Source: Homoserinibacter sp. YIM 151385 | Lineage (GTDB): Bacteria; Actinomycetota; Actinomycetes; Actinomycetales; Microbacteriaceae | Reading direction: 5' to 3' | DNA: 64,000 bases | NCBI RefSeq assembly: GCF_027912415.1 | Contig: NZ_CP115175.1 | Location: 620,001 to 684,000 of the forward strand | Shown: in pieces, positions 54,267-63,792 of the stretch | How positions within the stretch are numbered: the stretch's first letter is position 1 | How the letters are laid out: each line of letters opens with the position of its first letter | Program-made: the position numbers and the translations under genes | The notes under the pieces: model-generated | Told to the model about the DNA's origin: nothing | Database searches by the model: none | What the model saw: only the letters and a program-made list of their open reading frames with translations

Positions 54267-56624
54267 TCAGCCGCGCCGCAGCCCCGCGAGCTGGAGGTCG
54301 AAGCTCGAATCCGGCGTCGCCCGGTAGTTGAGGTGCACCGAGACGGCGAGCACGTTCTCCCCCGCCCGGAGCGCCGAGGCGGGGACCGCGAAGCTCGTGC
54401 CCGCGGCGACCGCCGTGCTCGTCCGGGGCGCCGCCGTCGCATAGCTCTGCGCGCTCAGCGCGCCGGTCGGCATCCCGGCGCGGCCCAGCTCGACGCCGTT
54501 GAGGAAGACGACCAGGCCGTCGTCGGCACGGGTGCGCAGCACGAGCTCGCGCCAGCGGCTCGGATCGTCGACCGTGAAGCGGTGGCGCATGACCGTGCTG
54601 CGCGGCCGGTCGGAGCTCGGCGGCGGCACGTCGGTGCTCGTCGCGATCGAGCTCGAGCCGAAGCCGAGCGGGGCGCGCCCCTGCGCCCACGCTCCGTCGG
54701 CGAAGCCCGCCCCCGTCCAGCCGGCCGGCCACGCCGCCGGGGTCCGCAGCCACCGCCAGCTCGAGCCCGAGGCGACGAGCGTCGCCGGCTGCTCGACGGG
54801 CGCCGCGGGCGTCGTCGCCGAGGCGCGCCCGGGGGCGGAGGCGAGGGCGCCCGCCCGTGCGACGAGCTCGTACTCGTAGCGCGTCGAGGGACTGAGCCCG
54901 GCATCCGCGAAGCTCCGCGCGGATGCCGGGGGCGTGGCGACGAGCGCGCCGTCGCGGCGCAGCTCGAAGCCGGTGACGCCGGGGCCGGCGCTCGTCCAGC
55001 TCAGGGTCACGGCATCCGGCCCGCTGGCGGCGGCGCTCAGCACGGGCGCCGCGGGCGCGGTCGGAGCGCCGGCGCGCTGCGCCGTGATGGAGAGGTCGAA
55101 GCTCGCGTCCGGCGTCGCCCGGTAGTTGAGGTGCGTCGAGGCGGCGACGACGTTGGCGCCGTCGCGCAGGAGGCCCGCCGGGATCGCGAAGGTGCGCGGC
55201 GCGGCCGTCGCCGCGGAGGTCGAGGGCGCGGCGCTCGCGTAGGTGCTCGTCGAGAGCGTGCCCGCCGGCAGCCCCGCCCGCCCGACCTCCGTGCCGTTGA
55301 CCCACACCGCGACGCCGTCGTCGGCGCGCGTGGTGATCGTCGCCCCGCTCAGGCCGGCGGCGTCAGCGACGTCGAAGGACTGGCGGAAGAGCATCGTGCG
55401 CGGGCGGTTCGAGCTCGGCGGGGGCACGTCGATGCTGGTCGCGACGCCGGAGCCGAAGCCGAGCGGCGCCCGCGCGGAGCCCCAGCCGCCGTCGGCGAAG
55501 CCCGCGCCCGTCCACCCCGCGGGCCAGGCTCCCGCGTCGTTGCGCCAGCGCCACGTCGCGCCGCCCGCGAGGAGCACCTCGGGCGTCCGCCCGGACAGGT
55601 CGGCGCTCAGCGAGAAGCGGCTGCTCGCATCCTCCTCGTACCGGCCGAGGGTCGGCGAGTAGGTCGCGGCGTCGATCCGGTCCTCGGCCGGCGTGAAGGT
55701 GTAGGTGCGCAGCCAGCCGTCGCCGCCGTTCGCGCGGCTCTGATAATCGGTGAGGATCTGGTGCACGGGCCGCCCGCAGGCGTTCGGGTCGCTGCGACGC
55801 GCCTCCCCGTTCTCGCCGTCGTGCCAGTGCCCGTTGACGACCATGAAGACGCGGCAGTTCGGGTACACGAGCCGCTGCCACAGCTGATTCGCCGTGAGCA
55901 CGGTCGTGTCGGGACGGACCACCGTGTTCGAGCGCGCCCCGCCCGTGTGGATGAAGCCGTGCGTCGCGAGGATCACCTGCCGGTCCGGATGGGCGTCGAT
56001 GACGCGCTGCGCCCAGCCGATCGTGTACTCGGGGCTCTCGAACTCGAGGTTGAGGATCAGGAGGTCGAGGCCCTCGGCGCTCAGCAGGCTGTAGCTGTCC
56101 TTGTTGCCGCGGTCGACCGGCTCGCGGCCCAGCCGCCCGTCGCCGAGGTAGCCGCCGTAGCTCACGGCGGGCGAGTTCCAGCTCGCCTCCGCGTAGCGGC
56201 TCGGCGGGAAGAGCCGGTCGTAGTGCGGCGAGCCGCCGGTCGAGAAGTCGAGATCGTGGTTGCCGGGCAGGACCGAGCTCGGGATGCCCGCCCGGTCGAG
56301 CACCGCCATCGAGGCGCTCGCGCGCTCCCACTGGGCCGCGACCGGCCAGGACTCCACGAGGTCCCCGAGGTGGATCGCGAACGCGATCCCGAGCTCCTCG
56401 CGCTGGGCGGCGATCCACTCCGTCTGCGCCGTGAAGGTGGGCGCGAGCGCCGCCGAGGCCGTGTAGCCCTGCGTGTCGGGGATGATCGCGATCGTGAAGG
56501 AGCCCTCGGGGGCAGCCGCGGCGGGCTCCGGCGGCAGGAGGACGCCGGCTGCGATCGGCAGCGCGAGCAGGAGGGATGCGGCGGCGCGGGCCGTCGATCG
56601 GCGGGCGCGGGCGGGGCTGGTCAT
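54267..56624 (-). CDS. Secreted calcineurin-like phosphoesterase with duplicated beta modules
   Basis: A 785-residue exported protein. The signal peptide spans about residues 1-37 and ends PPEPAAAA. The metallophosphoesterase domain (about 40-345) shows PDTQ (Asp50), GDLV (Asp88), GNHD (121-124), ATHG (His222) and GHWH (265-268). Module 1 (about 350-516) and module 2 (about 612-783) are closely similar to each other, sharing WPAGWTGAGFADG, DVPPPSS and NYRATPD. An FnIII domain (about 520-606) separates them. There is no sortase signal. The substrate is unknown; extracellular phosphate scavenging or glycan binding is plausible. Confidence 0.9.
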   Translation of the reverse strand: MTSPARARRSTARAAASLLLALPIAAGVLLPPEPAAAAPEGSFTIAIIPDTQGYTASAALAPTFTAQTEWIAAQREELGIAFAIHLGDLVESWPVAAQWERASASMAVLDRAGIPSSVLPGNHDLDFSTGGSPHYDRLFPPSRYAEASWNSPAVSYGGYLGDGRLGREPVDRGNKDSYSLLSAEGLDLLILNLEFESPEYTIGWAQRVIDAHPDRQVILATHGFIHTGGARSNTVVRPDTTVLTANQLWQRLVYPNCRVFMVVNGHWHDGENGEARRSDPNACGRPVHQILTDYQSRANGGDGWLRTYTFTPAEDRIDAATYSPTLGRYEEDASSRFSLSADLSGRTPEVLLAGGATWRWRNDAGAWPAGWTGAGFADGGWGSARAPLGFGSGVATSIDVPPPSSNRPRTMLFRQSFDVADAAGLSGATITTRADDGVAVWVNGTEVGRAGLPAGTLSTSTYASAAPSTSAATAAPRTFAIPAGLLRDGANVVAASTHLNYRATPDASFDLSITAQRAGAPTAPAAPVLSAAASGPDAVTLSWTSAGPGVTGFELRRDGALVATPPASARSFADAGLSPSTRYEYELVARAGALASAPGRASATTPAAPVEQPATLVASGSSWRWLRTPAAWPAGWTGAGFADGAWAQGRAPLGFGSSSIATSTDVPPPSSDRPRSTVMRHRFTVDDPSRWRELVLRTRADDGLVVFLNGVELGRAGMPTGALSAQSYATAAPRTSTAVAAGTSFAVPASALRAGENVLAVSVHLNYRATPDSSFDLQLAGLRRG

Positions 56625-56730: not shown

Positions 56731-58413
56731 CTAGCCGCCGAGGGCCGCGCGCAGCGTGTCGAGCCCGACCCCGCCGATGTCCAGCGCCCGCTTGTGGAAG
56801 GCCTTGATGTCGAAGGCGGCGCCCTCCCGCGCCTTCGCGTCGTCGCGGAGCTGCTCCCAGATCCGCTGGCCCACCTTGTACGAGGGCGCCTGGCCCGGCC
56901 ACCCGAGGTAGCGGTTCACCTCGAAGCGCACGAAGCCCTCGTTCATGTTCACGTTGCGGCCGAGGAAGCCGAAGGCGTCATCGCCCGACCAGGTGCCCGA
57001 GCCGTCCGGCAGCGGCTTCTCGAGGTGCACGCCGATGTCGAGCACGACGCGCGCGGCGCGCATGCGCTGCCCGTCGAGCATCCCGAAGCGGTCGGCCGGG
57101 TCGTCGAGGTAGCCGAGCTCCTCCATGAGCCGCTCGGCGTAGAGCGCCCAGCCCTCGGCGTGGCCGGACGTGCCCGCGAAGCGCCGCCACGAGTTGAGCT
57201 GCGCCCGGTTGTACGTCGCCTGCCCGATCTGGAGGTGATGGCCCGGCACGCCCTCGTGATAGACGGTCGTCAGCTCGCGCCACGTGTCGAACTCGGTGAC
57301 GCCCTCGGGGACGCTCCACCACATCCGCCCGGGCCGGGAGAAGTCGTCGGCGGGGCCCGTGTAGTAGATGCCGCCCTCCTGCGTGGGGGCGATCATGCAC
57401 TCGAGCGCGCGGATCTCCGAGGGGATGTCGAAGTGGGTCCGGCCGAGCTCCTCGACCGCGCGGTCGCTCGTCTCCTGCATCCAGCGCTGGAGCGCCTCGG
57501 TGCCGTGCAGCTTGCGCGACTCGTCCGCGTCGAGGAAGGCGACCGCCGCCTCGACGCCGCCGCCCTCGACGATCTCGCGCGCGATCGACTCCTGCTCGGC
57601 GACCATGCGCGCGAGCTCCTCGATCCCCCACTCGTAGGTCTCGTCGAGGTCGACCTCGGCGCCGAGGAAGTCGCGCGAGGCGAGCGCATAGAGCTCGCGG
57701 CCGACCGCGTCTTTCTCGGGCGCGACGGGCGCGAGCTCGTCGCGGAGGAAGGCCGCCAGCTCGCCGTACGCGACAGCCGAGGCCTCGGCGCCCGAGCGGA
57801 GCTCCGCGCGGAGCGAGTCGGGGAGCGCGCTGCCGTCCTCCGCCGAGGCACCGCCCGCGAGCTCGAAGAAGAAGCCCGTCGGCGCGATCTGCTTCTCCGC
57901 CTGCGCGATGACCTCGCGGACCTGGCGCACCGCCGGCGTCTGCCCCGTGCGGATGCCCTCGCGGAGCGTCTCGATGTAGCCGCGCATCGCGCCGGGCAGG
58001 TTGTGCAGCCGCGTCGCGATGTGCGCCCAGTCCTGCTCCGTCGACGTGGGGAGCAGGTCGAAGATGTCGCGGAGTCCCTGCGGCTCCGAGGCGATCACGT
58101 TGAGCTCGCGGCGGTGCATGCCCGCCTCGTGCTTCTCGATCTGCAGCTCAAGCTCGCGCGACAGATCCATCTTCGTGACCTCGTCGACCGCATCCTGCGG
58201 CGTCGCGCCGCGGAGCTCGGCGAGCGTCGCCGTCGCGGCCGCGAGCGAGGCCTCGTGCCCGGCGGGCGAGAGGTCGGAGTACTCGCCCTCGCGTCCCGGC
58301 CGTCCGAGCCACACGTGCATCTCGGGGTGGAGCTCGAGCTCGGTGTCGACCCACCGCTCCGCGATGTCGTCGATGGGGGTGGCTGGCCGCGCGGGCTGCG
58401 TCGCATCCGTCAT
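56731..58413 (-). CDS. DUF885 zinc metallopeptidase-like protein
   Basis: A 560-residue member of the DUF885 family, mostly alpha-helical and related to gluzincin peptidases. The HEXXPGHH motif is YHEGVPGHH (His386, Glu387, His392/393), and the glutamate ligand is in SGHAEGWALYAE (Glu420). RYLGWPGQAPSYKVG near the C-terminus is a strong family motif. No signal peptide is present, so it is probably cytoplasmic. The substrate is unknown. It stands alone between the PTS operon and the phosphoesterase gene. Confidence 0.9.
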   Translation of the reverse strand: MTDATQPARPATPIDDIAERWVDTELELHPEMHVWLGRPGREGEYSDLSPAGHEASLAAATATLAELRGATPQDAVDEVTKMDLSRELELQIEKHEAGMHRRELNVIASEPQGLRDIFDLLPTSTEQDWAHIATRLHNLPGAMRGYIETLREGIRTGQTPAVRQVREVIAQAEKQIAPTGFFFELAGGASAEDGSALPDSLRAELRSGAEASAVAYGELAAFLRDELAPVAPEKDAVGRELYALASRDFLGAEVDLDETYEWGIEELARMVAEQESIAREIVEGGGVEAAVAFLDADESRKLHGTEALQRWMQETSDRAVEELGRTHFDIPSEIRALECMIAPTQEGGIYYTGPADDFSRPGRMWWSVPEGVTEFDTWRELTTVYHEGVPGHHLQIGQATYNRAQLNSWRRFAGTSGHAEGWALYAERLMEELGYLDDPADRFGMLDGQRMRAARVVLDIGVHLEKPLPDGSGTWSGDDAFGFLGRNVNMNEGFVRFEVNRYLGWPGQAPSYKVGQRIWEQLRDDAKAREGAAFDIKAFHKRALDIGGVGLDTLRAALGG

Positions 58414-58516: not shown

Positions 58517-58786
58517 CTACTCCTTGTCGAGGTCCGTCTCGAGCAGCGTCTGCAGCTCGTCGAGCGCGGCCTCGGCACCCTCCGCGTCGGAGGCGATCGT
58601 GACCTCCTCGCCGTGGCCGATGCCGAGCGAGAGCACCCCGAGGATGCTCGCCGCGTTGACGCTCTTGCCGGCGGCCGAGGTGAGCGTCACGGCGACGCCG
58701 GTCTTGGCGGCGGCCTGGCTGAAGAGCGAGGCGGGGCGGGCGTGCAGCCCGACCGACGATGCGACGACGACCTTGCGTTCGGACAT
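58517..58786 (-). CDS. ptsH: Phosphocarrier protein HPr
   Basis: An 89-residue PTS phosphocarrier. The phosphorylated His15 is in GLHARPAS. The second site region NAASILGVLSLG has Ser47 at the position of the regulatory serine of Gram-positives. It passes phosphate from enzyme I to the EIIA of the same operon. It is the last gene of the PTS operon, 61 bases after the dehydrogenase gene. Enzyme I is not in the window. Confidence 0.96.
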   Translation of the reverse strand: MSERKVVVASSVGLHARPASLFSQAAAKTGVAVTLTSAAGKSVNAASILGVLSLGIGHGEEVTIASDAEGAEAALDELQTLLETDLDKE

Positions 58787-58847
58787 TGGGGGTTCCTCCT
58801 TGATCGGGGGGCGGTGGTCTTGGGGGTGGGGTTCGGGCGCGAGCCGC

Positions 58848-59891
58848 TCAGGGCTCGATCGTGACCTTGATGGCGTCGCCGCTCGCGACGAGGTCGAAGG
58901 CCTCGAGCACGCGATCGAGCGGGAGGCGGTGGGTCACGAGATCCGCGACGGGCACGCGGCCCGAGGCGATGAGCTCGAGCGCCTCGCGGTTGTGCGCGGG
59001 ACTCGAGCCGTTGACGCCGACGAGGGTGAGCTCGCGGTAGTGCACGAGGTTCGCGTCGACCGTGATCATGGGCGCGTCCTTCGCGAGGCCGCCGAAGAGG
59101 CTGAGCCGGCCGCGACGTGCGAGCATCCGGAGCCCGGCCTCCTGTGCGGGGCCGGACGCGGCGGCGGTGATGACGACGTCGGCGCCGCGGCCGCCCGTCG
59201 CATCCAGCACCGCCTGGACGGCGGAGGCGTCGTCCGCCGGGGAGACGACGTCATCCGGCTCGACCAGCTCGGCCGCGCGGGCGAGCCGCTCGGCGTTGAC
59301 GTCGAGCAGCATGACCCGGGCGGCGCCGCGCGCCCGGGCGAGCCGGACATGGAGGCAGCCGATCGGCCCGGAGCCGATCACGACGACCGTGTCGCCCTCG
59401 CCGACTCGCGCCAGCTCCTGGCCGTTGAGGACGCAGGCGAGCGGCTCCGCGACCGAGGCCTCGACGTACGAGAGCGCCTCGGGGATGCGGTTCACGCCGT
59501 CCACCGCGAGGACCTCGCGCGGCACGATGACGTGCTCGGCGAAGCCTCCCGGGAACTGATAGCCCATGGAGCGCTGGTTCTCGCACACGGCGAGATGGCC
59601 GCGACGGCACTCGGCGCAGGACCCGTCGGGGATCGCGGCGATGATCTGCACGCGATCCCCGACGGTCCATCCGTCGACTCCGGCTCCGACCTCGTGGATC
59701 TCCCCCGCGATCTCGTGCCCCATGACCTGTGGCGGGGTCATGTTGGGGTGCCCGGATCGGGAGATCTTGACGTCGGTGCCGCACATCGAGCACGCACGCA
59801 CCCGGACGAGCAGCTCCCCCTCGCCGACGACAGGTGACGGGTCGTCGTCGAGGCGGATGTCGCCCGGGGCGTAGTACCTCGCGACTCTCAC
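58848..59891 (-). CDS. Zinc-dependent MDR dehydrogenase, probable polyol-phosphate dehydrogenase
   Basis: A 347-residue medium-chain dehydrogenase of the sorbitol/threonine dehydrogenase type. Catalytic zinc residues are Cys37 (SMCGTD), His59 and Glu60 (MGHE). The structural zinc loop has Asp89, Cys92, Cys95 and Cys103 (PDGSCAECRRGHLAVC), with an Asp where the first Cys is usual. The NAD site is IGSGPIG. It replaces the MtlD expected beside a mannitol PTS. It most likely oxidises the phosphorylated polyol imported by this PTS; the exact polyol is not known. GTG start, 7 bases after EIIA. Confidence 0.85.
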   Translation of the reverse strand: MRVARYYAPGDIRLDDDPSPVVGEGELLVRVRACSMCGTDVKISRSGHPNMTPPQVMGHEIAGEIHEVGAGVDGWTVGDRVQIIAAIPDGSCAECRRGHLAVCENQRSMGYQFPGGFAEHVIVPREVLAVDGVNRIPEALSYVEASVAEPLACVLNGQELARVGEGDTVVVIGSGPIGCLHVRLARARGAARVMLLDVNAERLARAAELVEPDDVVSPADDASAVQAVLDATGGRGADVVITAAASGPAQEAGLRMLARRGRLSLFGGLAKDAPMITVDANLVHYRELTLVGVNGSSPAHNREALELIASGRVPVADLVTHRLPLDRVLEAFDLVASGDAIKVTIEP

Positions 59892-59898
59892 GGGACGG

Positions 59899-60366
59899 CT
59901 ACTCGTCCTCGTCGTCCTCGGCGGCCAGCAGCTCGTACACCTCGTCGGAGGTGGTGGCGTTGCGGAGCGCCTCGGCCTTGTCGGGGTCGAGCAGCACGGT
60001 GGCGAGCTGGGAGAGCAGGGCGATGTGCCCGTTGCCCTTGGCGGCGATGCCGACGGCGACGCGCACGTCGTTGCCGTCCCAGTCCACGCCCTCCGGGAAG
60101 CGGAGGACGCTCAGCGCGTCCTGCTTCACGGAGTCCTTGCCGGCGAGGGTGCCGTGCGGGATCGCCACACCCTCGCCGACGTAGGTGGACACCGTGTTCT
60201 CCCGCTCGAGCATGGCGTCGATGTACGAGTCATCGATCGCCCCCGCCTCGAGCAGGGCCTGACCGGCCTGGCGGATCGCCTCGTCCCGGCTGGATGCCGT
60301 GGCATCCAGCCGGATCGAGGACTCCGACAGGAGCTCGGTCAGCGGAGTCGCAGCCTCATCCGACAC
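59899..60366 (-). CDS. PTS EIIA component (mannitol/fructose family)
   Basis: A 155-residue EIIA of the Fru/Mtl class that relays phosphate from HPr to EIIB. The active histidine is His71 in EGVAIPHGTLAGKD. Residues about 10-145 form the domain; a short acidic tail ends it. It starts with a GTG 3 bases after the EIIB stop, and GGAGG sits in the end of the EIIB gene. It is free-standing and not fused to EIICB as in E. coli MtlA. Confidence 0.93.
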   Translation of the reverse strand: MSDEAATPLTELLSESSIRLDATASSRDEAIRQAGQALLEAGAIDDSYIDAMLERENTVSTYVGEGVAIPHGTLAGKDSVKQDALSVLRFPEGVDWDGNDVRVAVGIAAKGNGHIALLSQLATVLLDPDKAEALRNATTSDEVYELLAAEDDEDE

Positions 60367-60369
60367 GGA

Positions 60370-60678
60370 TCAGACCTCCACCGTCTCGCCGTTCTGGATG
60401 GCCTTGACGATCTTCGTGACCGCCGGGTCGCCCATGAACAGCTGGAAGGGGATGACCGGCACCTCCGGCACGACGCCGCGTGCGCGCTCGGCGAGCGCCG
60501 ACTGCGTCACGACGACATCCGCATCGCTGGGGATGTTCGCGACCGGCGAGTGCTCGACCGTGACGCCGCTCTTCGCGAGCTGCTTCTTGAGGGTCGAGGC
60601 GAGCATGACGCTCGACCCCATCCCCGCGTCGCAGGCGACGATGAGCTTCTTGACGCTGGATCCGTCGATGGTTGCCAT
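60370..60678 (-). CDS. PTS EIIB component (mannitol type)
   Basis: A 102-residue EIIB. The phosphorylated Cys16 is in VACDAGMGSSVM, the typical P-loop of mannitol EIIB. The chain ends AIQNGETVEV. It is separate from EIIC, 37 bases downstream of it, and close to EIIA. It transfers phosphate to the incoming polyol bound by EIIC. Confidence 0.94.
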   Translation of the reverse strand: MATIDGSSVKKLIVACDAGMGSSVMLASTLKKQLAKSGVTVEHSPVANIPSDADVVVTQSALAERARGVVPEVPVIPFQLFMGDPAVTKIVKAIQNGETVEV

Positions 60679-60715
60679 GTGGTTCTCCTTGTCGTGTCTG
60701 AGCCTGCTTGAGAGG

Positions 60716-61948
60716 CTACGCGGTCGCGCCCTTGGACGCGGCCTTGTTCGCGGCGGACTGCTCCTTCGCGGCCTCGAGGTCGACCGGGTCGACCTGCTCC
60801 TTGCGACCGAAGCCGAGGAGCAGCGCGCCGATGATCGCCGAGACGGCGGCCGAGAGGATGATGCCGAGCAGGTTGAGCAGGATCTTGTCCGGCGGCGAGA
60901 CGAGCGCCCACGCGATGATCGATCCGGGCGATGCCGGGCCTGCGAGGCCGAGGTCCCAGATGACGGCCCAGAGCACGCCCGTGGCGCCGCCGACGATCGC
61001 CGCGAGGACGAGGATCGGCTTCATGAGGACGTAGGGGAAGTAGATCTCGTGGATGCCGCCGAGGAAGTGGACGACCATCGCGGCCGGCACCGTCGGGCGG
61101 ATCGCGCGCGGCCCGAAGAGCAGCATCGCGGTGAGGATGCCGAGCCCCGGGCCGGGGTTCGACTCGATCATGTAGAACACCGAGCGACCGAGCTCATCGG
61201 CCTGCTGCGCGCCGAGCGGCGTGAAGACGCCGTGGTTGAGCGCGTTGTTGAGGAACAGCACCTTCGCGGGCTCGACGATGATCGAGACGAGCGGGAGGAG
61301 CTTGAGCTCGACGAGCCAGCTCGTCGCGGCGCCGAGCGCCTGGCCGAGGTAGAACGTCGCCGGGCCGACCACGTAGATGCCGAAGGCCGCCATGAGACCG
61401 CCGAGGATGCCGGCCGAGAAGTTGTCGACGAGCATCTCGAAGCCGCCCTGGACCTTGCCCGAGATCGCGTTGTCCCACAGCTTGAGCAGGAGCGCCGTGA
61501 GCGGGCCGAGGATGAACGCGCCGATGAAGTTCGCCCCGATGCCGGCGATGTTCTCCGGGGCGGGCAGCGGCTCGACGCCGTTGATGCTGAGGCCGGTGAG
61601 CTGCAGCGCGACCGGGGCGAGCATCGCGCCGAGCGTCGCCACGGCGCCGACGACCGCGCCGCGGGTGCCGTGCACCATCTTGCCGCCCGTGTAGCCGATG
61701 AGCAGCGGGAGCAGGATGTTGATCAGCGGGCCGACGAGGGTCGAGAGCTGCACCGTGATGGGCAGCGGGTCATCGGTCGTGCCGGCGAGGGAGTTGATCC
61801 AGCCGTCGGGGATGAAGAGCGCGGTGATGAGACCGAACGCGATGAAGGCGCCCAGGTTCGGCATCACCATGCCCGCGAGGAACGCGCCGAAGCGCTGGAC
61901 CTTCGCTCGGGCACCGGTGCCGGAGGCGGCGGGTGTGTAGTCGGACAT
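60716..61948 (-). CDS. PTS EIIC permease (mannitol type)
   Basis: A 410-residue membrane permease with about nine to ten hydrophobic helices. GAFIAFGLITALFIPDGW at the start, FNNALNHGV-like LFLNNALNHGVFTPLG and MVVHFLGGIHEIYFPYVLMK are hallmarks of the mannitol (MtlA/CmtA) EIIC group. A charged C-terminal tail of about 35 residues follows, where E. coli MtlA continues into EIIB. AAGGAG lies before the ATG at 61948. The substrate is a hexitol by family; mannitol is the default but not assured, given the missing MtlD. Confidence 0.93.
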   Translation of the reverse strand: MSDYTPAASGTGARAKVQRFGAFLAGMVMPNLGAFIAFGLITALFIPDGWINSLAGTTDDPLPITVQLSTLVGPLINILLPLLIGYTGGKMVHGTRGAVVGAVATLGAMLAPVALQLTGLSINGVEPLPAPENIAGIGANFIGAFILGPLTALLLKLWDNAISGKVQGGFEMLVDNFSAGILGGLMAAFGIYVVGPATFYLGQALGAATSWLVELKLLPLVSIIVEPAKVLFLNNALNHGVFTPLGAQQADELGRSVFYMIESNPGPGLGILTAMLLFGPRAIRPTVPAAMVVHFLGGIHEIYFPYVLMKPILVLAAIVGGATGVLWAVIWDLGLAGPASPGSIIAWALVSPPDKILLNLLGIILSAAVSAIIGALLLGFGRKEQVDPVDLEAAKEQSAANKAASKGATA

Positions 61949-62001
61949 CAGGTGGTACTCCTTCGTACGGATCGGAGAAGGGTGGTGGATGGATTGCGGC
62001 G

Positions 62002-62955
62002 TCAGGTGGCCACGAGTGGCCGATCCAGATCTGGCTGCCACACCAGCTGGACGATCGAGCGGTCGAGGTCCTCGGGGCCCGGGACCGCGCTGCCGGGGAG
62101 ACCGGTCGCGGCGGCGCCCCAGGCGAGGGCCTCGACGAGCGCGCCGGCGAGATCGCTCTCGTCGGCGGAGAAGCGGGAGAGGAAGCCGGCGAGGAAGCTG
62201 TCCCCCGCGCCGACGGTCGAGACGGGCCGCGGCACGCGCGACTCGCCCACGAGGACCACGTCGGGCCCGACGAGCACGGCGCCCTCGGCGCCGAGGCTGA
62301 CGAGGACGAGCTCGACGCCGCGGGCGCGGATCTCCTGCGCGCCCTCGACGACCGCGGCGATGGAGCCGAGCTCCCGGCCGACGAGCTCGGAGAGCTCCTG
62401 CCGGTTCGGCTTCACGATGCGCGGGCTCACCTCGACGGAGGCCGCCAGGGCGTAGCCGGAGGAGTCGATCGCGAGGCACGCGCCCGCCTGGACGGCATCC
62501 CGGAGGAGGCTCCGGATGTCGCTGCCCTCGATCGACGGCGGCGTGCTGCCGGAGACGACCAGCCAGTCGCCCTCGCGGACCGCGGAGCGCACGGCGGTCG
62601 CGACGGCGCGGAGATCGGCCTCGCCGAGCGGAGAGCCGGGCTCGTTGAGCTTCGTGACGGCGCCGTCGGCCTCGCAGATCGTGAGATTCGAGCGGGTGCG
62701 GCCCGAGACCGGAACGAAGCGGCACGGCACGGAGGCGGACTTCAGCAGGCGCGTCAGCTCGGCCCCCTCGGGACCGGCGACGCCGACGACCGCGATCGAC
62801 TCGTGGCCGTTCGCCGTGAGTGCGCGCGTGACGTTGACGCCCTTGCCGCCCGGCTCGAGCACCGGCTCGGAGGTGCGCAGCACCGCGCCCGGCTCCAGCT
62901 CGTCGACGAGGACCGTGCGATCGAGGCTCGGGTTGAGCGTGAGGGTGACGATCAC
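62002..62955 (-). CDS. PfkB-family kinase, 1-phosphofructokinase type
   Basis: A 317-residue ribokinase-fold kinase. It opens IVTLTLNPSLDRTVLVDEL, the signature of 1-phosphofructokinase/tagatose-6-phosphate kinase; GGKGVNVTRALTANGH follows and the catalytic GAGDSFLAGF is near the C-terminus. It probably adds a second phosphate to the ketose phosphate made by the operon dehydrogenase (fructose-1-phosphate or a tagatose/sorbose form). The GTG overlaps the regulator stop by four bases; EIIC starts 53 bases later. Confidence 0.9.
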   Translation of the reverse strand: MIVTLTLNPSLDRTVLVDELEPGAVLRTSEPVLEPGGKGVNVTRALTANGHESIAVVGVAGPEGAELTRLLKSASVPCRFVPVSGRTRSNLTICEADGAVTKLNEPGSPLGEADLRAVATAVRSAVREGDWLVVSGSTPPSIEGSDIRSLLRDAVQAGACLAIDSSGYALAASVEVSPRIVKPNRQELSELVGRELGSIAAVVEGAQEIRARGVELVLVSLGAEGAVLVGPDVVLVGESRVPRPVSTVGAGDSFLAGFLSRFSADESDLAGALVEALAWGAAATGLPGSAVPGPEDLDRSIVQLVWQPDLDRPLVAT

Positions 62956-63713
62956 ACGATCACCACCCGGGGGCCCGCGTTCTCGAGCTCCTCCGCGAAG
63001 TCCGCGTCGACGCCCGAGTCGGTGATGACGGTGTCGATGCCGGCGAGGGGCGCGACGCGCGCGAAGTCCTCGCGGCCGAACTTCGAGTGGTCGGCGAGCA
63101 CGACGATGCGCCGCGCCGCGTCGATGAGGGCCCGCTTGACGATCGCCTCCGCCATGTCGGGCGTCGTGAGGCCCCGCTCGACGCTGAGGCCGTTCGTGCC
63201 CATGAAGGCGACGTCGGCGAAGACCTCGGAGATCTGGCTGCGCGTCCACTCGCCGACCGCGGCGAGCGTGCGACCGCGGACGATGCCGCCGAGGAGGTGG
63301 AGGTTGATGTTCGCGCGCCCGACGAGCGCGCTCGCGACGGGGATCGAGTGGGTCACGACCGTGAGCTCGCGGTCGGTCGGCAGGAGCTCGGCGACGCGGA
63401 CGGTCGTCGTGCCGGCGTCGAGGATGAGCGAGCCGCCGTCGGGCAGCTCCTCGAGGGCGGCGCGCGCGATCCGGTCCTTCTCCCCCGTGGCGTGCGCCTC
63501 GCGATCGGCGACCGCCGGCTCGATGCCGAGACGCTCCACCGGGATGGCGCCGCCGTGGACCCGGCGGAGGACGCCGCGGCGCTCGAGGGCCGTCAGGTCG
63601 CGGCGGACGGTCTCCGGGGTGACGGAGAGCTCGCGTGCGAGGCCGGCGACCTCGACGCGACCGCGCGAGCGTGCCGTGTCCAGGATCTGCTGGTGTCGCT
63701 CCGGTGCGTACAA
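62952..63713 (-). CDS. DeoR/GlpR-family transcriptional regulator
   Basis: A 253-residue DeoR-type regulator. The N-terminal HTH is in RHQQILDTARSRGRVEVAGL and VTPETVRRDLTALERRG, and the C-terminal sugar-phosphate sensor has LDAGTTTVRVAELL and LADHSKFGRED. It is expected to repress the PTS operon until a phosphorylated sugar binds. The start is a TTG at 63713 with GAGG 5 bases upstream, an uncommon codon. It leads the operon; direct repeats overlap its promoter. Confidence 0.93.
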   Translation of the reverse strand: MYAPERHQQILDTARSRGRVEVAGLARELSVTPETVRRDLTALERRGVLRRVHGGAIPVERLGIEPAVADREAHATGEKDRIARAALEELPDGGSLILDAGTTTVRVAELLPTDRELTVVTHSIPVASALVGRANINLHLLGGIVRGRTLAAVGEWTRSQISEVFADVAFMGTNGLSVERGLTTPDMAEAIVKRALIDAARRIVVLADHSKFGREDFARVAPLAGIDTVITDSGVDADFAEELENAGPRVVIV

Positions 63714-63756: not shown

Positions 63757-63763
63757 TGGGCTT

Positions 63764-63792
63764 ATGTAAGTCCGTTTGTGTCCGCTTGTCAA
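63764..63792 (-). promoter_or_regulatory. Promoter of the PTS operon
   Basis: On the minus strand a perfect -35 TTGACA (63787-63792), a 17-base spacer and TTACAT (63764-63769) as the -10. It is one of the few promoters here with a consensus -35. Confidence 0.6.
63770..63789 (-). promoter_or_regulatory. Tandem 10-bp direct repeat, putative DeoR operator
   Basis: ACAAGCGGAC directly followed by ACAAACGGAC on the minus strand, one mismatch, filling the -35/-10 spacer. A regulator bound here would block RNA polymerase. Direct repeats of about one helical turn are common for DeoR-family operators. Confidence 0.5.

Follow-up and report, generated by a model that had tools for sequence, protein, structure and literature searches.

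Few sugar alcohols are as common in nature as mannitol, whose breakdown through the phosphotransferase system (PTS) is taught as the conversion of mannitol-1-phosphate into fructose-6-phosphate by MtlD. Mannitol being two-fold symmetric, its 1-phosphate gives fructose-6-phosphate when oxidised at C5, as by MtlD, and fructose-1-phosphate when oxidised at C2. Here we analysed an operon in a 64,000-nucleotide stretch (the window) that covers positions 620001-684000 of the one-contig, 2.88-Mb genome of Homoserinibacter sp. YIM 151385 (NZ_CP115175.1; host genome, coded G000). The operon shares with the canonical mannitol PTS operon (MtlA/MtlF/MtlD) the mannitol-class EIIC, EIIB and EIIA, but carries a zinc medium-chain dehydrogenase/reductase (MDR) and a FruK-like PfkB kinase where MtlD belongs. 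We lean, with somewhat better than even confidence, towards a reading of these genes in which the operon would import mannitol, oxidise mannitol-1-phosphate at C2 to fructose-1-phosphate, and pass this product to the kinase to form fructose-1,6-bisphosphate.

Other described systems share parts of this gene set. The fructose operon (FruR-FruK-FruA, HPr, Enzyme I [EI]) has in common with it a DeoR-type regulator, a FruK-type kinase and HPr; the window operon lacks FruA and has a mannitol-class EII and the MDR instead. The galactitol operon (GatABC-GatD) likewise combines a PTS with an MDR hexitol-phosphate dehydrogenase, but in the window the EIIC matches mannitol models only, the dehydrogenase is 28% identical to GatD, there is no tagatose-bisphosphate aldolase and the kinase is not LacC-like. 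In Bacillus methanolicus, the PTS operon atlABCD for D-arabitol also includes an arabitol phosphate dehydrogenase, but it serves a pentitol, and the genes named for it include no kinase (PMC6685057). In the mannitol and sorbitol degradation described for Haloarcula, mannitol carbon likewise passes through fructose-1-phosphate and FruK, but by way of ABC uptake, free fructose and ketohexokinase, with neither a PTS nor a sugar-alcohol phosphate in the pathway as presented there (PMC11519228). An operon of the type studied here (C3B54_111147-111140) is reported as the sole PTS of Pontimonas salivibrio, which we take our genome G030 to represent; it differs in having the kinase before DeoR and EI at the end, in a genome without MtlD (PMC6106888 for the operon). 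The passages of that genome paper on the operon interpret it as an operon for mannitol or fructose and propose no fructose-1-phosphate chain (PMC6106888). The operon type is already in print for one species; for a conversion of mannitol-1-phosphate to fructose-1-phosphate, we found no earlier proposal in the open-licence literature searched.

The seven genes all lie on the minus strand, and were identified with Pfam and NCBIfam as a DeoR/GlpR-family regulator of 253 aa (62952..63713; PF00455 179.6 bits, PF08220 55.5), a FruK-like PfkB kinase of 317 aa with a GTG start, the proposed fructose-1-phosphate kinase (62002..62955), a mannitol-class EIIC of 410 aa (60716..61948), a mannitol-type EIIB (60370..60678; PF02302 52.8, NF011663 62.8), a fructose/mannitol-type EIIA (59899..60366; PF00359 133.3), the zinc MDR dehydrogenase of 347 aa, the proposed mannitol-1-phosphate 2-dehydrogenase (58848..59891), and an HPr of 89 aa (58517..58786; PF00381 85.9, TIGR01003 86.7, over the cut-off of 47.9). 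From DeoR to HPr, the intergenic gaps are -4, 53, 37, 3, 7 and 61 bases. What we take to be the phosphorylation motifs can be read in EIIB (CDAGMGSS), EIIA (IPHGT) and HPr (LHARPAS). The regulator scored under the cut-offs of all 11 listed NCBIfam models, and the EI gene lies away from the operon, near 1.595 Mb of the host genome. The gene order is retained in 15 related loci, 14 of them titled as Microbacteriaceae or a genus of that family and one as 'uncultured actinobacterium' (L005 and L017 are interrupted by contig ends), so the arrangement is not due to chance. Coordinates, domain matches and related loci together confirm the same-strand, closely spaced, seven-gene operon described in an earlier note on this DNA.

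In the route that we favour, phosphate would pass from phosphoenolpyruvate to EI, encoded elsewhere, and on through HPr, EIIA and EIIB, with mannitol being phosphorylated to mannitol-1-phosphate during transport by EIIC. The zinc MDR would then oxidise C2, the carbon next to the phosphate, probably with NAD, and the FruK-like PfkB would convert the resulting fructose-1-phosphate into fructose-1,6-bisphosphate. Fructose-1-phosphate as the product of C2 oxidation fits a kinase of this type.

The distribution of the MDR was analysed in 394 genomes of the class, using a threshold of E 1e-85 or better and five scored candidates per genome. It was present in 45 genomes, the host among them, and in all 44 from outside the host's family it was adjoined by EIIC, EIIB and EIIA resembling those of the window, sometimes fused into one protein (three of the 44 loci end at contig ends, with the EIIs still visible). 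MtlD, searched at E 1e-15, was detected in none of these 44 genomes and in all four positive controls. The constant company of a mannitol-class EII, together with the absence of MtlD, provides good support for the idea that the MDR behaves as an MtlD substitute across the class. Nonomuraea gerenzanensis (Streptosporangiaceae), for example, carries a complete operon, EI included. As a separate matter, an 11.85-Mb Nonomuraea record listed as a plasmid (NZ_LT559118.1) looks like a mislabelled chromosome.

Among 120 genomes of the host's own family, MtlD was found in 81, the mannitol-class EIIC in 82, both in 80 and the MDR in 15. The MtlD locus was read in a non-random sample of 30 MDR-negative family genomes. 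In 24 of these, IIC, IIB, IIA and MtlD are consecutive, and 21 of the 24 also show HPr or EI in the stretch (EI in 18); MtlD is set apart in G006, G016, G035, G058, G089 and G097, as it is in the 11 MDR genomes whose mtlD locus was read. G006 has MtlD and no EIIC, so MtlD can occur on its own in a genome that lacks this PTS.

Two loci show MtlD and the MDR exchanged in the same slot: L224 (G095) reads DeoR-IIC-IIB-IIA-MtlD-HPr-EI, whereas L059 (G030) reads PfkB-DeoR-IIC-IIB-IIA-MDR-HPr-EI. Their IIC and IIB proteins are 76% and 78% identical, respectively, and the kinase is present solely in the MDR version. So similar a permease points to mannitol as the substrate of both. Consistent with this coupling of kinase and MDR, all 15 MDR loci of the family carry the kinase, as against none of the operons at 30 mannitol-class loci without an MDR (29 genomes; at one of these loci, L225, a distant gene of the PfkB family lies on the opposite strand). 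Moreover, the four MDR-less versions of the window's locus (L073, L074, L075 and L077) all lack the kinase too. In the best EII tree, L073/L074, L075 and L077 fall in three places among MDR-positive loci, and for two of these places well-supported branches leave no alternative. Since the EII genes lie between the kinase and the MDR, a single deletion cannot explain their joint absence. This joint absence and the exchange with MtlD back the coupling of the two enzymes, and with it the earlier proposal that a mannitol-class permease is wired to a two-step route of dehydrogenase and kinase.

The loci that lack the kinase were also informative. Of 59 MDR genomes (15 from the family and 44 others), 56 had readable loci, G203, G248 and G391 being excluded for contig ends. 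The kinase is present at the locus in 40, 38 of which are FruA-negative (the exceptions are G072 and G502). The locus carries no kinase in the other 16, and 12 of these have FruA with an adjoining FruK, while G243, which has neither FruA nor a kinase at the locus, encodes an EI-DeoR-FruK-HPr cluster (L170:16146-19881) some 17 kb away from the MDR. In G502, FruK, DeoR, EI and HPr lie at the mannitol/MDR locus, and FruA and HPr are found elsewhere without an adjoining FruK (L156, L163). Fisher's test for kinase at the locus against FruA gave p 2.5e-7, for genomes that are not independent. From this pattern, the MDR route seems to depend on a FruK encoded at the locus or elsewhere, and hence to involve fructose-1-phosphate. 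The host genome has no FruA (TIGR01427). Among MDR-negative genomes of the family, FruA was checked in G016, G097, G035 and G089; G089, whose locus has no kinase, is FruA-negative. In G016 and G097 (L151, L161) we observed FruA with DeoR and no FruK in the stretch, alongside a mannitol locus without kinase, MDR or DeoR.

The kinase itself scored 288 bits with the 1-PFK subfamily model TIGR03168 (cut-off 216.4) and 279.5 with the 1-phosphofructokinase equivalog TIGR03828, whose cut-off is 292; the scores with other models were 171 for Pfk-2, 165 for E. coli FruK and 106.7 for LacC (TIGR01231, cut-off 409.55). With TIGR03828, operon orthologues gave 298-312 (L107, L108, L112, L113), 288.7 (L104), 269.3 (L007), 207.9 (L059) and 205.2 (L060), and a FruA-adjacent FruK (L123) itself reached only 271.3; 1-phosphofructokinase was the best equivalog model for all nine kinases scanned (the window's and eight relatives'). 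Three alignment columns set FruKs apart from both Pfk-2 and LacC, and one of these, the FruK-only Asn104, is present in 42/42 operon kinases. In the kinase tree, whose root and long branches are unsure, the operon kinases occupy three places: a large clade (Microbacteriaceae and the families coded f24 and f16), a second f24 clade, and G030/G104. At least two of these placements are required by well-supported branches. The second f24 clade joins the FruA-linked FruKs (97/94), and the clade of the window kinase stands beside, not inside, them. Elsewhere in the host genome there are two adjoining PfkB-family genes (L034, L035; G000:C1:1498518-1500238), one of which shares 34% identity with the operon kinase across 250 residues.

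The window EIIC was matched by mannitol models alone in NCBIfam, at scores under the curated cut-offs (TIGR00851, 383.5 against 468.4; the fused IICBA model NF011663, 406 against 589). Among 10 other EIICs scanned, those of the MDR loci L104, L112, L059 and L119 pass TIGR00851, those of L117, L118, L119 and L123 pass the mannitol IICBA model, and that of L073 passes neither. A curated mannitol model is therefore passed by seven of eight MDR-locus EIIC/IICBA proteins (L059, L104, L112, L117, L118, L119 and L123), the exception being the window's. The EIIA scored highest with the fructose IIA/HPr model (146.5) and lower with the mannitol IICBA model (117.6).

The dehydrogenase carries the domains PF08240 (95.7 bits) and PF00107 (79.5), and C37, H59, E60 and E149, presumably the zinc ligands from what is generally known of MDRs, are present in at least 97% of the 76 alignment rows. 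The cofactor is probably NAD, to judge from an acidic residue that follows the second Rossmann strand. The model scores of the dehydrogenase were 200 for Tdh (cut-off 458), 177 for IolM and 128.9 for GatD (cut-off 550), with 28.1% identity to E. coli GatD, and four scanned relatives were likewise nearer to Tdh and IolM than to GatD. On these scores, together with that of the kinase for LacC, we rejected the GatD-like and tagatose-6-phosphate kinase parallels drawn in the earlier note. The AlphaFold model (predicted template modelling score 0.86) has a predicted MDR fold, and the 50 structures listed in the fold comparison all have Z >31 and are nearly all alcohol or polyol dehydrogenases; among the best of those listed are arabinitol (Z 34.5) and sorbitol (34.4) dehydrogenases, the top entries being tied within 1 Z. 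Residues 41-56, which judging by their position are probably near the active site, have a predicted local distance difference test score <50. With the best folds tied and this segment poorly predicted, the regiochemistry cannot be read from the structure. We also noted a Pseudonocardia metagenome-assembled genome (L019:7001-10245) in which an MDR with 70% identity to that of the window lies next to a fused EIICB and an EIIA; the regulator there looks SorC-like by eye, and there is no kinase in the stretch, which stops at a contig end.

Upstream of DeoR, a promoter on the minus strand (63763..63792) consists of TTGACA (63787-63792) and TACATA (63763-63768), the -35 and -10 boxes, separated by 18 bases that contain the putative operator CGGACACAAACGGACT (63769-63784). 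TTGAC is conserved in 23/23 upstream regions of the window's clade, some of which come from close relatives; the operator differs at no more than one position in 16 of these regions and at two to four positions in the other seven (L005, L008, L016 and L017 are omitted from this comparison). Given this position, a repressor bound at the site would block the polymerase, and DeoR would be expected to repress from there and to be released by a pathway intermediate, probably fructose-1-phosphate. In the host genome the operator-like site is single-copy at up to two mismatches, and five more sites have three. At up to two mismatches it is absent from ten other loci scanned (four MDR-negative, the Pontimonas type, f24 and f44); L077, which retains DeoR, has a four-mismatch site 136 bases before that gene.

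In the host genome we found one PF02378 EIIC, that of the operon, and an mtlD. The latter (G000:C1:1397241-1398389; L039:5242-6390) encodes 382 aa, scores 384.5 bits against the 356-bit cut-off for mannitol-1-phosphate 5-dehydrogenase, clearing one of nine MtlD models, and stands alone near 1.397 Mb between ilvC and serA, apart from PTS genes. Open reading frames and the NCBIfam scan revealed no MtlD inside the operon, but the earlier description of the operon as standing 'instead of MtlD' fails for the host genome, in which the canonical gene is present. That note had also raised co-regulation of an MtlD elsewhere with the operon: the gene exists, but none of the three-mismatch operator sites lies at mtlD or at the EI gene, and an operator shared with either was rejected for the host genome at up to three mismatches.

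Three other explanations were considered. The MDR could be a non-orthologous mannitol-1-phosphate 5-dehydrogenase yielding fructose-6-phosphate, with the kinase acting as a FruK for fructose imported by the same EII as fructose-1-phosphate. This would account for the presence of the kinase chiefly in FruA-negative genomes (38/40) and for the preference of EIIA for the fructose model, and the assignment of the Pontimonas operon to mannitol or fructose is compatible with it (PMC6106888). We nevertheless consider it improbable, for the kinase is absent along with the MDR, not with the EII, in the four MDR-negative versions of the locus, one of them from the FruA-negative G089, and is missing as well from the MtlD-bearing L224. 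Furthermore, P. salivibrio is reported, second-hand from Jang et al., to grow on mannitol and not to use fructose (PMC6106888), which argues against a kinase serving imported fructose. For other strains, there are reports of mannitol and fructose use by Luna-1 cultures, and of mtlA and mtlD in Aquiluna from saltwater, which is related to Pontimonas (PMC12422013).

Alternatively, the MDR might yield fructose-6-phosphate, and the PfkB might act as a dedicated 6-phosphofructokinase, either accelerating entry into glycolysis or standing in for it. The host already has a PfkA-family gene, FruK is what mostly appears where the locus has no kinase, L224 has MtlD for the MDR and no kinase, and the window kinase combines the FruK-like Asn104 with Val at the position of the Pfk-2 Lys27, all of which make this unlikely in our view, in spite of near-equal phmmer scores (Pfk-2 141, FruK 2abq 145) and of the report that Rhodoluna lacicola, a relative of Pontimonas, has no phosphofructokinase gene (PMC4156110). 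Finally, the substrate of the operon could be a different hexitol, such as sorbitol, galactitol or altritol, degraded along a GatD-like pathway, with mannitol left to the mtlD encoded elsewhere. Such a division would explain why the host has both, and the arabinitol and sorbitol dehydrogenases among the nearest folds, tied with others, are in line with it. Its chances seem slim when the EIIC matches mannitol models alone and is the only PF02378 protein of the host, the MDR-locus EIIC of L059 is so close to one whose operon has MtlD, the kinase matches the tagatose-6-phosphate kinase model poorly, and MtlD is found in none of the 44 MDR genomes outside the family.

Several observations weigh against the fructose-1-phosphate route. 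Its weakest point for the host organism is the retained MtlD, which already provides mannitol-1-phosphate with an exit; mtlD is kept by 13 of the 15 family MDR genomes, the host included and G030 and G104 excepted. The host may run both exits, or use MtlD otherwise, for example for making mannitol. We know of no MDR that oxidises a carbon adjoining a phosphate. With E. coli Pfk-2 the window kinase shares 35.2% identity, more than the 30.4% that it shares with E. coli FruK, the other two FruK-only columns are mixed among operon kinases, and, if G030 lacks phosphofructokinase as reported for R. lacicola, a 6-phosphofructokinase role for its kinase becomes likelier. DeoR, the neighbour of the kinase, is also absent from L073, L074 and L075, L077 alone keeping it, so kinase and DeoR may have gone in one deletion; kinase and MDR may also have been gained rather than lost. 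Operon kinase and FruA are divided largely along the lines of taxonomic family, so that the genomes do not count as independent; G072 retains the operon kinase despite having a fructose operon that includes FruK, and in G297, G478 and G481, which lack FruA, window-type and FruK queries found no kinase in the stretches read. P. salivibrio, whose phenotype is second-hand, could take up mannitol by another transporter. Overall, no other single explanation accounts for the data as well as the fructose-1-phosphate route, which is nevertheless unproven.

Downstream of the operon, a DUF885 gene (window 56731-58413) follows in most Microbacteriaceae loci read, including four without kinase and MDR; as it persists where these are missing, it looks like a fixed neighbour outside the route. 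Beyond it, positions 54267-56624 encode a large secreted-looking protein with two similar stretches in its translation. Neither an Rfam scan at gathering thresholds nor a tRNA scan gave any match in the 64-kb window.

Extended beyond the host, and at odds only slightly better than even, our reading is that several actinomycete families use an MDR 2-dehydrogenase with a FruK, borne by the operon or supplied by the fructose operon, bypassing fructose-6-phosphate and the control at 6-phosphofructokinase and replacing MtlD in part of the class. Even if the replacement of MtlD alone is correct, a substrate can be assigned to a dehydrogenase family that has no curated name. If the whole route is true, it adds an enzyme activity, oxidation next to a phosphate, explains the genomes that have a mannitol permease but no MtlD, and provides a path for mannitol that would skip the phosphofructokinase step controlling glycolysis.

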